Positions 8,121-10,314 of a DNA stretch of 64,000 nt are shown here, one piece after another. Made by a program: the position numbers and the translations under genes. Within the stretch, counting starts at the first letter, position 1. The number at the start of each line of letters is the position of its first letter. The notes under the pieces were generated by a model. It was not told the origin of the DNA and ran no database searches. It was given only the letters and a program-made list of their open reading frames with translations. This DNA is from Candidatus Melainabacteria bacterium (GTDB taxonomy: Bacteria; Cyanobacteriota; Vampirovibrionia; 2-02-FULL-35-15): the NCBI GenBank assembly GCA_023250195.1, contig JAHFBF010000002.1, positions 62,001 to 126,000 on the forward strand. Direction: 5' to 3'.

Positions 8121-8981
8121 CTAATTGTCGCTTAAATCAAATTTCCCTAAAGTCTCAACCTGATGTTCTTTTGGTGTGTACCATGGATAGAGACTTACGC
8201 CGGCATTAATATTGTTATCGCTTGCGGCTTTTAAAAATCCGATTATTTCTTCTCTTGATGTTTTTTGTCCGTCACCGATTAAGTGTATTTGTACGTCTTC
8301 TTTCTGAGTGTATTCTTTTATTTTTGAAATGGTCTGAGCCGTATAATCATAGGCACCTTTTTCAGAGCGAAGTTTTACAAAGCCGTGCCAGTATGTCATG
8401 GGTGCAATGATGTCAAAATTATTTGCAATGGTTTTCCATGCATAATGTCTGGGATCTGCTCTTTTTAACACCGGTGAAAATGTAATTGCTATAAGTGGAT
8501 ATTTTGGTCCGACTGATTTTCTGACAGCTTTTGCAAAGGTCTCAATAGAGCGGGAATTAGTAACTTCTTCTATATCAGCTGCAAGACCATCCAGCTTATC
8601 GCTGTCTGGAGTTTTATAATTTACAGCCTGAATAAATTTTTGTGCATCAGAAAGAGGATCTTTTAGAAACGAATAAGTCCATCCAATAACTTTAATATTT
8701 CTTTCATGGGCTGATTTGATTACTTTGTTTAATCCAGCCGGGTTTTTTATAGCAGGTGTATTTGATCTGGAAATCTGAAGATAGATAGTATCAATGCCTT
8801 TTGATTTTAAGTGTTCACAGAACATATCCGGATTTGCAGGATAGTTCCAGATATTTAACCAGATTCCTTTTCCAAAGGTGATAGGTTCTTTTGCTTCTGA
8901 ACTGATTGGTTCAAGAAACAAAACAATTAAAATTATAATTAGATTAAAAAATTGTTTATAAGTCATATTTCTTATCTGCAT
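8121..8981 (-). CDS. Secreted TIM-barrel glycoside-hydrolase-like protein
   Basis: 286 residues with an N-terminal hydrophobic segment (about 10-25) followed by a likely cleavage site, so it is exported. The rest has a (beta/alpha)8 pattern resembling putative glycosyl-hydrolase families of the DUF4015/GHL type: GIWLNIW, GIDTIYLQISRS, VIGWTYSF, LDGLAADIEEV, IAITFSP and IIAPMTYWHG, with acidic residues at strand ends. A second Met six residues in is an alternative start. Substrate is unknown; I rely on fold-like motifs only. It faces tadA tail to tail and is probably monocistronic. Confidence 0.6.
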   Translation of the reverse strand: MQIRNMTYKQFFNLIIILIVLFLEPISSEAKEPITFGKGIWLNIWNYPANPDMFCEHLKSKGIDTIYLQISRSNTPAIKNPAGLNKVIKSAHERNIKVIGWTYSFLKDPLSDAQKFIQAVNYKTPDSDKLDGLAADIEEVTNSRSIETFAKAVRKSVGPKYPLIAITFSPVLKRADPRHYAWKTIANNFDIIAPMTYWHGFVKLRSEKGAYDYTAQTISKIKEYTQKEDVQIHLIGDGQKTSREEIIGFLKAASDNNINAGVSLYPWYTPKEHQVETLGKFDLSDN

Positions 8982-9065
8982 ATACCACTTTTTAGCATTC
9001 TCTAATTAAACTAACATTAAATGACGAAAATACATGTAAAATGTTTTAAATTTTAGGATATACTA

Positions 9066-9100
9066 TTTCTGATTATCTGACTTCTGATACTCTGATTCTC
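9066..9100. repeat. Degenerate TCTGAT-type short tandem repeat before tRNA-Arg
   Basis: Repeated words TCTGATTATCTGACTTCTGATACTC and similar precede the tRNA. The same words recur before tRNA-Leu at 36.5 kb and, on the other strand, inside the DUF3326 gene. Confidence 0.55.
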
Positions 9101-9107
9101 TAGAATT

Positions 9108-9181
9108 GTCCACGTAGCTCAGTTGGATAGAGCAAGGCACTCCTAACGCCTAGGTCGGAGGTTCAACTCCTCTCGTGGACG
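9108..9181 (+). tRNA. tRNA-Arg (CCT anticodon)
   Basis: The acceptor stem GTCCACG pairs with CGTGGAC (9174-9180). The D-arm is GCTC...GAGC, and the anticodon loop CTCCTAA gives CCT, reading AGG. The T-arm is GGAGG/CCTCT with loop TTCAACT. One mismatch closes the anticodon stem (A-C). CCA is not encoded. Its 3' two-thirds is duplicated just downstream. Confidence 0.92.
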
Positions 9182-9325
9182 AGTAAATATAAGCGAAGGA
9201 TGTTGCGATGAGCAATATCCTGAGCGCCGGTAAGGAAAAGGAAAAATCTTAAAAGGATTTTTCCGGTATAAAAAACCAAGGCACTCCTAACGCCTAGGTC
9301 GGAGGTTCAACTCCTCTCGTGGACG
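9182..9325 (+). repeat. Duplicated 3' part of tRNA-Arg with a hairpin spacer
   Basis: The 49 nt at 9133-9181, from the end of the D-arm through the discriminator, recur without change at 9277-9325. The 95-nt spacer holds two hairpins: AGGATGTTGC/GCAATATCCT (9197-9221) and GGAAAAATC/GATTTTTCC (9240-9264). The second copy has no 5' half, so it cannot fold as a tRNA. It looks like either a tandem duplication scar or an att-type remnant of an integration event. Confidence 0.85.
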
Positions 9326-9345
9326 CGTTTTATAAATGAAGAAAA

Positions 9346-10314
9346 ATGAAAAATCTTCAGACATCTGAAAATTTACATAAAGTTGTCTATGCTCTGGTAG
9401 GACCTACCTGCACATATAAGTCCAATATTGCAGTTGACCTTGCTAAAAAATATCCATTTGAAATTGTTTCTGCGGATTCAAGACTTATATATAAAGAAAT
9501 GGATATTGGAACTTCTAAGCCTACTATTAAAGAGATGCAAGAAGTGCCACATTATATGATTGATTTGGCTTTGCCAAGTGAAAATTATTCTGTAGGATTA
9601 TATAAAAAAGAATCAGAAGAAAAGATAAATGATATTTTTTCAAGGAGTAAAATACCTTTATTTGTAGGTGGAACAGGACTTTATTTAAATTCTGTGCTTC
9701 TTGGTCTTTCAATCCCGGAAGTTAAGCCTGATTTGAGCTTGAGAAGACAGCTTAAAGAATTTACTCAGGAAGAGCTATATAAAAATCTCAACAAATTAGA
9801 TCCAAAGGCAGCAGAAATTATTCACAAAAATGATAACTTCCGTACTATAAGAGCTTTAGAAGTCATTTACAAAACGAATAAGTTATTTTCTGAGTTGAAG
9901 ACTATAAATGAGTTGCCTTTTAGAGTTGTATGGATTGGATTAACCTATAAGGAACGTGAATTACATACAGAAAATATAAGAAATCGTGCAGAAGCTTTTT
10001 GTGAAAATGGTTTTGTAGAAGAAGTTAGATATCTCCTGGATAAATATGGAGAGCTTGATTTGTTTAAAAGGACAATAGGATATTTAGAAGTTATGCAGTA
10101 TTTAAAAAACTTGTTTGATAAAGAGCAACTGGTGGAAAAGATTACCTTAAATACAAGACGTCTTGTTAAGAGGCAAATGACATGGTTTAGAGCTAATAAA
10201 GGAATTAAATGGGAATATCTGGATGAGCTTGATTATAAGGGAGCTTTAGAAAGAGTCTTTAATTTGATAGATGAAGGGTCTTTTGCAAAGACATCCAAAG
10301 TGTCAATGTCTTGA
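9346..10314 (+). CDS. miaA: tRNA dimethylallyltransferase (MiaA)
   Basis: 322 residues matching MiaA: DSRLIYKEMDIGTSKPT, VGGTGLYLNSVL, IRALEVI and IGYLEVMQYL are in the right order. The enzyme prenylates A37 of tRNAs that read UNN codons. The P-loop is unusual: residues 19-26 are GPTCTYKS instead of GPTASGKT, so the glycine before the catalytic lysine is a tyrosine. A TATAAA at 9331-9336 precedes the ATG by 9 nt. Its last 82 nt overlap the convergent tsaD gene. Confidence 0.93.
   Translation: MKNLQTSENLHKVVYALVGPTCTYKSNIAVDLAKKYPFEIVSADSRLIYKEMDIGTSKPTIKEMQEVPHYMIDLALPSENYSVGLYKKESEEKINDIFSRSKIPLFVGGTGLYLNSVLLGLSIPEVKPDLSLRRQLKEFTQEELYKNLNKLDPKAAEIIHKNDNFRTIRALEVIYKTNKLFSELKTINELPFRVVWIGLTYKERELHTENIRNRAEAFCENGFVEEVRYLLDKYGELDLFKRTIGYLEVMQYLKNLFDKEQLVEKITLNTRRLVKRQMTWFRANKGIKWEYLDELDYKGALERVFNLIDEGSFAKTSKVSMS

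Follow-up and report, generated by a model that had tools for sequence, protein, structure and literature searches.

The window, a 64,000-nt stretch of a Candidatus Melainabacteria genome, carries behind its intact tRNA-Arg(CCT) gene a displaced copy of the 3' part of that gene, separated from it by a short insert of two hairpins. We read this scar as the attL/attR-type mark left when a gene-free hairpin micro-cassette, probably moved in trans, integrated into its tRNA target, and assign this reading a probability of about 0.57. The window's own case rests on analogy with other loci of the family. A preliminary description had proposed the att-like repeats of a tRNA-targeted integrase around an insert below phage size, either a deleted element or a tiny mobile unit, with simple tandem duplication as the alternative. 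The former gains support, with a presumed enzyme, and the latter is disfavoured, because the arrangement recurs at other tRNAs, the tRNA fragments lie in the configuration of integrated islands, integrase-bearing elements occupy other tRNAs of the family, and the two tRNA copies are of mixed ancestry in several relatives.

Anatomy of the tRNA-Arg(CCT) scar

The intact tRNA-Arg(CCT) gene, on the attL side of the scar, occupies positions 9108–9181 of the forward strand (Rfam RF00005, 62.2 bits; the ARAGORN call is 9107–9182). Its positions 9133–9181 (+), which by our reading of the cloverleaf would run from the last D-stem base to the discriminator base, recur with 100% identity as a 49-nt 3' fragment at 9277–9325 (+), on the attR side, as detected by repeat search and RF00005. 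The exact duplication and its start-to-start distance of 144 nt are as the preliminary description gave them. The repeat stops at the discriminator base, and in its extended form it measures 52 nt at 98% identity. The fragment is without the acceptor 5' strand and nearly the whole D arm, and gives a sub-threshold tRNA match of 21 bits (RF00005). A chance origin of the 49-nt repeat is practically excluded, and an assembly artefact is unlikely because the architecture is present in eight separate assemblies.

The 95-nt insert (9182–9276, +) contains two hairpins and a tail. Hairpin 1 (9193–9225, +), recognized by fold and motif scoring, has the form GC-GA-10 bp stem-GA-GC with a GA/GA internal loop; hairpin 2 (9240–9264, +) is an A/T-rich 11-bp stem, GGAAAAATCTT/AGGATTTTTCC, with one G-T pair; and the A-rich tail GGTATAAAAAAC (9265–9276, +), delimited by fold and motif comparison, abuts the tRNA fragment. 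Folding of 9183–9277 gave z = -6.1 against 200 dinucleotide shuffles, none of which was equally stable, and the two-hairpin spacer described earlier is confirmed. No other Rfam RNA matched the spacer at E ≤ 1, the matches being the tRNA and its fragment only, and no ORF of at least 80 aa was found between 8981 and 9346. The next gene after the scar (9346–10314, +), which from its sequence we take to be miaA, has one relative per genome in the 11 family genomes and served as the synteny anchor.

The insert belongs to a dispersed repeat of the window's genome. In that genome (2.21 Mb, hereafter G000) the spacer gave 13 matches at E ≤ 1, nine of them at E ≤ 0.001, showing that it does occur elsewhere; matches at E ≤ 0.001 were found in 7 of the 11 family genomes, with 27 in G003. 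The longest match between the 250-nt flanks was 10 nt in 25 other repeat copies versus 49 nt in the window copy. The long repeat therefore belongs to the tRNA site and not to the hairpin repeat itself, and a long target duplication created by the hairpin repeat, which we considered, is unsupported.

The tRNA-Arg(CCT) locus in relatives

Searching the 11 family genomes (G000 and the relatives G001–G010) with the fragment placed it beside tRNA-Arg(CCT) in only two, G000 and G009, and the structure is thus not common to all relatives. The flanks without a fragment were read as empty sites, among which a strongly diverged fragment could escape the search. The insert of G009 at this tRNA contains a hairpin module unlike that of G000. 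No integrase of 371–393 aa lies by tRNA-Arg(CCT) in any of the 11 genomes; G008 has a Xer-like gene of 288 aa approximately 1 kb upstream. The 40-kb interval from tRNA-Arg to miaA in G008 was rejected as an element, as its genes look housekeeping by eye, i.e., it appears to be a rearrangement. In G001 (L094/L093), the segment corresponding to window positions 9326–30230, from miaA to a prfA-like gene, is inverted, and one breakpoint is the 3' end of tRNA-Arg(CCT). A phage attP was also sought and rejected: viral contigs contained no match to a pattern built on the conserved 3' part of tRNA-Arg. The same pattern matched five contigs in named genomes, each titled Candidatus Melainabacteria.

Micro-inserts at other tRNAs of the family

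Sixteen micro-inserts at tRNAs of 11 anticodons were identified in 8/8 surveyed family genomes ('Ca. Melainabacteria' MAGs; all but G005, G007 and G010). Their plan is an intact tRNA, hairpins of 95–175 nt, and then a 3' fragment in the same orientation, the spacer measuring 95–148 nt in 15 of the 16. They adjoin the tRNAs Arg-CCT, Met and Thr-GGT in G000; Thr-TGT in G001; Thr-CGT in G002; Phe in G003; Ile, Lys and Ala in G004; Met in G006; Trp and Lys in G008; and Met, Thr-CGT, Ser-GGA and Arg-CCT in G009, where the CAT tRNA is a different gene from that of G000 and G006. These related groundwater bacteria thus carry more such scars, far below the usual size of the mobile elements that are sought.

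For G000 and G009, a tRNA covariance search returned sub-threshold tRNA-like pieces just behind intact tRNAs, which were then read, and the flanks of tRNAs above the Rfam cut-off were self-scanned, some of them ending at contig ends; ARAGORN found 41 of the 42 tRNAs of G000. For G001–G004, G006 and G008, mainly covariance-model matches were followed, so short fragments are undercounted there. Weak tRNA-model matches were left out of the count (G000 C1:200148, C2:77139 and C1:245657; G009 C23:35086; in other genomes L258, at which no fragment was scored, and L261–L265; plus several others).

Fold z-scores of the 16 micro-inserts, from 100 plain shuffles each, ranged from -1.3 (G000 Met, weak) to -7.5. 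The motif ATAAA[AG] lies at most 16 nt before the fragment in 11 of the 16, against a window background of 2.9% (binomial 5e-14, a generous value since the motif was picked after the tails had been seen), and is missing from five. Hairpins containing a GA/GA internal loop were likewise scored in 11 of the 16, two of which (G004 Ala and G008 Lys) look spurious, versus 105 of 3200 shuffles. The right edge of the repeat is at the tRNA end or at most 2 nt away in most cases; in G004 Ile and G009 Ile the repeat extends approximately 25 and 12 nt beyond it. A different arrangement was seen at tRNA-Tyr of G006 (L236:618–869), which has two 3' copies behind the gene with plain 35-nt spacers, in a tandem unit of 84 nt without the hairpin module.

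Side and orientation of the tRNA fragments

Exact 16-nt fragments were sought within 1.5 kb downstream and only 0.4 kb upstream of each tRNA in G000 and G009. A 3' fragment was found downstream of 4 of 41 ARAGORN tRNAs in G000 and 6 of 42 in G009, the six not including G009 Arg and Pro-CGG, whose copies have diverged; a 5' fragment was found upstream of none in G000 and two in G009. No 3'-upstream, 5'-downstream or inverted fragments were detected at these 41 and 42 tRNAs, so that every fragment had one of the two placements permitted by integration, 3'-downstream (10) or 5'-upstream (2). A non-family control of 20 tRNAs in 19 loci gave no fragment of any class. The same configuration rule is used by Islander for true islands (PMC4383910). 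In G009, tRNA-Gln (L178) is preceded by three copies of approximately its first 26 nt, and tRNA-Pro-TGG (L191) by one copy of its first 20 nt.

Larger inserts and integrases

Family tRNAs also host gene inserts of 0.6–1.2 kb and elements of 6–13 kb with related tyrosine integrases. The G009 insert at Leu-TAA contains a HicA match and a HicB-like match below its cut-off, and that at Pro-CGG an RHH + PemK/MazF-like pair; these toxin-antitoxin-like pairs fill most of the insert (L180:1035–1468 at tRNA-Leu and L201:917–1493 at tRNA-Pro). The G009 inserts at Trp and Ile have one ORF each without a Pfam match, and the G000 insert at His has an HTH match and a weak phosphoribosyltransferase match. 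At Ser(CGA) of G004, an 875-bp insert has an ORF that is HNH-like by reading, and its right end, adjoining the fragment, is a hairpin module with the tail.

Integrases (PF00589, open frames of 367–393 aa) adjoin tRNAs in several genomes, and the two tested by Pfam gave weak N-terminal HTH matches. In 8 of 17 integrase stretches the integrase is flanked on one side by the intact tRNA and on the other by a fragment or a second copy of it. Four of these are of the 3' type: G009 Pro-TGG (fragment at 12.4 kb, two more at 13.0 and 14.3 kb), G006 Thr-GGT (12.9 kb), G006 Arg-TCG (7.7 kb), and G004 Asp, with two tRNA copies 12.5 kb apart. The 5' type, with fragments 6.1–9.5 kb upstream, is found at G003 Val, G002 Pro-GGG, G002 Pro-TGG and G005 Arg-ACG. 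One further stretch (L245, G001 His) has a fragment at 1.1 kb and the integrase elsewhere, and no far-end fragment was seen in the other eight (L238, L240, L242, L243, L244, L246, L250 and L251), several of which end at contig ends. The G009 Pro-TGG stretch (L235:135–14572), with its integrase and three fragments, has the form of an array of successive inserts.

By alignment, seven tRNA-side integrases form one group, 55–64% identical to the first, with invariant residues including R227, H321, R324, H347 and Y356, which presumably have catalytic roles. The one integrase of the 371-aa group in G000 (C6:601821; L243:6786–7898) has no tRNA or tRNA fragment nearby. Two integrase peptide patterns searched against viral contigs returned two distant relatives at 26% identity.

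The larger inserts bear on the main rival explanation, in which a kilobase-sized tRNA-integrating element shrank internally and its right end, the hairpin module, was left between attL and attR. Bigger inserts are indeed present at family tRNAs, and the G004 Ser(CGA) insert ends in the same kind of hairpin and tail; however, 16 inserts of narrow size range and similar two-hairpin plan would be hard to produce by random deletions, and the ATAAA[AG] tail is missing both at the fragment of the four 3'-type integrase elements and from the cargo inserts at G009 Trp, Leu, Ile and Pro-CGG. We consider such shrinkage unlikely, while the window's insert taken singly may be either a mobile micro-unit or a deletion remnant.

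Ancestry of the two tRNA copies

At 21 loci, each copy was compared with orthologous tRNAs. The copies are identical at 11 loci, including that of the window, which is therefore uninformative on ancestry, and differ by one base at four; of these, the fragment is closer to the orthologues in G002 Thr and G009 Trp, and the intact gene in G008 Trp and G009 Met (the latter against its own type). At the other six loci the copies differ by 6–12 nt.

Among these six, the G009 Arg fragment is closer than the intact gene for 7/8 orthologues. G009 groups with the sisters G003 and G004 in the tree (support 0.99), and the tRNA-Arg genes of these two show 0 and 3 differences to the G009 fragment versus 8 and 9 to the intact gene, G004 having 0 and 8. 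The G004 Ala fragment is closer for two of three orthologues, with 0 versus 12 differences to G009, whereas for the third, from G003, the intact gene is the closer copy, with 6 differences in 40 against 9 for the fragment. An integrase adjoins this G003 tRNA-Ala, and since the two genomes are sisters, shrinkage in G004 of an inherited element would be consistent with this, a point in favour of the deletion explanation. The fragment is also closer for 3/3 orthologues at G004 Ser and, weakly (8 vs 10), for 1/1 at G009 Pro. At G004 Lys and G008 Lys the intact gene is closer for 3/3 orthologues each, each locus serving as the other's orthologue. Incoming DNA with its own tRNA part gives copies of unlike origin at a single locus, whereas tandem duplication does not.

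At the strongly differing loci, the intact tRNA is also consistent within itself, its 5' half fitting the 3' half. Such coherent 5' halves of foreign-type tRNAs make a plain swap of 3' halves insufficient, and allele import or compensation would therefore also have acted. Import by homologous recombination could by itself have spread the tRNA plus insert between species, with crossovers in the conserved tRNA and the first origin left aside. The intact tRNAs at G009 Arg and G004 Ala, which depart from their orthologues in both halves while the fragments fit, agree with this, but neither the first rise of insert and fragment at many tRNAs nor the hairpin plan is explained by it, and we hold it to be improbable.

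Least probable is a local duplication, in which slippage or template switching at the hairpins recopied the tRNA 3' part with no incoming DNA: hairpins can stall replication, short matches occur at the junctions (C, AGC, ACC), 15 of the 21 loci have copies that are identical (11) or one base apart (4), and at G006 Tyr an 84-nt unit with a plain 35-nt spacer occurs twice in tandem, but the six loci at which one of two unlike copies fits the orthologues better, the ending of most repeats no more than 2 nt from the tRNA end, the lack of long flanking repeats at 25 other hairpin-repeat copies and the exclusive island configuration in G000 and G009 argue against it.

Proposed mechanism

Under the favoured integration reading, a short gene-free cassette composed of two hairpins, an A-rich tail and a tRNA 3' part would recombine with tRNA-Arg(CCT), so that the tRNA gene is split and at once restored, an intact tRNA being left and the other 3' copy displaced behind the insert. 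The enzyme would be a tyrosine recombinase of the kind found beside family tRNAs, probably acting in trans because the insert codes for nothing, and we infer that such an integrase made the window's insert. A circular or single-stranded intermediate may have been involved, and the cassette may be mobile at present. Several points count against this explanation: no recombinase lies within the insert, none of the 371–393-aa integrases was found by tRNA-Arg(CCT), the integrase of this group in G000 has no tRNA or fragment beside it, and only 8 of 17 integrase stretches have a fragment at the far end. The tail motif is missing from five micro-inserts and from the four 3'-type integrase elements, G000 Met folds weakly, and duplex DNA does not readily form a circle of 144 bp.

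A broader proposal, which we put forward tentatively and at somewhat less than even odds, is a family-wide class of gene-free integrative micro-elements of approximately 100–150 nt, whose mobile unit would consist entirely of two hairpins (often with the GA/GA loop), the A-rich tail and the 3' end of a tRNA. In this proposal tRNA-specific tyrosine integrases would move the unit in trans, perhaps as a folded single strand, and related modules would also sit at gene starts. Should the micro-inserts prove mobile, site-specific integration would extend to units of very small size, which may exchange parts of tRNAs among lineages and would provide a test of the minimal DNA that a tyrosine integrase needs in trans.

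Comparison with known systems

The scar is of a known kind; its small size and hairpin build are new as far as our literature search shows, which returned no report of hairpin-only inserts of approximately 100 nt at tRNAs, a result that is not proof of absence. Islands at tRNAs, their displaced fragments, and the 5' and 3' types are well described (PMC4383910, PMC9897764). As in the tRNA/tmRNA islands covered by Islander, the window has an intact tDNA and a same-orientation displaced fragment, 3' fragments there being accompanied by rarer 5' ones and attachment being centred on the anticodon or T-stem region; unlike those islands, the window's insert is 95 nt long and codes for nothing (PMC4383910). 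The window scar shows the 3' fragment downstream of the intact tDNA and, with the fragment in only 2 of 11 family genomes (a much diverged one could be missed), an empty site in relatives. It contains no integrase within the interval and falls short of 2 kb. The Islander screen retains only elements with an integrase and a length of 2 kb or more (PMC4383910), and would be blind to very small integrative inserts.

Islands at ssrA of Dehalococcoides likewise have att repeats without an integration module and accrete in tandem arrays, comparable to the three successive fragments at G009 Pro-TGG; unlike the inserts of the window's family, they carry genes, use one site (ssrA) and involve a serine recombinase (PMC3146451). 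The family inserts consist of hairpins only and occur at many tRNAs. The additive islands of Ca. Methylopumilus are reported, in the sections drawn on here, to have repeats of the last 20 nt of tRNA-Lys and to span 330 bp–42 kb with 1 to 63 CDS each (PMC10872708). They and tycheposons resemble the present loci in that, in streamlined genomes, inserts ranging from very small to large are accompanied by repeats of tRNA ends; the smallest island there, in contrast, is 330 bp with CDS, and those sections contain no hairpin module (PMC10872708). A tycheposon, described as a cargo transposon of 4–200 kb that sits at a tRNA and has a tyrosine recombinase (PMC10872708), was rejected as a class for the window's insert, which has 95 nt and no genes.

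Two classes of small repeats were also considered. A MITE was rejected, as no inverted repeat pair of at least 12 nt was reported within 8950–9500 and the direct repeat is 49 nt long. REP/REPIN sequences are dispersed palindrome pairs in intergenic DNA that are mobilised by RAYT, and the hairpin repeat resembles them in consisting of dispersed intergenic palindrome pairs. To our knowledge, long flanking repeats are not expected from RAYT. The REPIN/RAYT assignment was not adopted: PF01797 (Y1) matched at E ≤ 0.001 in 6 of 11 genomes and not in G003, which has the most repeat matches (27).

The hairpin repeat at gene starts

The A-type hairpin repeat was also observed at gene starts. The scan covered 28 loci. 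In the tail-forward reading hairpin 2 is intact at 14 of them, and in 13 of these 14 copies a start codon (ORF of at least 40 aa) or a tRNA 5' end follows 7–16 nt after hairpin 2; in the remaining copy the start is at 40 nt. Reverse readings of the palindrome had a start within 25 nt in 0/16. These counts come from 30 printed readings sorted by tail, by eye. The gene-start loci are L002, L003, L004, L105, L111, L116, L120, L124, L129, L125, L112, L114 and L128, with the repeat around position 1500–1600. The repeat may be a mobile 5' leader or may have a strict insertion preference, and its placement at gene starts may matter more than the tRNA scar. In G001, a piece of the repeat (L118:1501–1538) lies inside an RNase P RNA match (1447–1866, RF00010).
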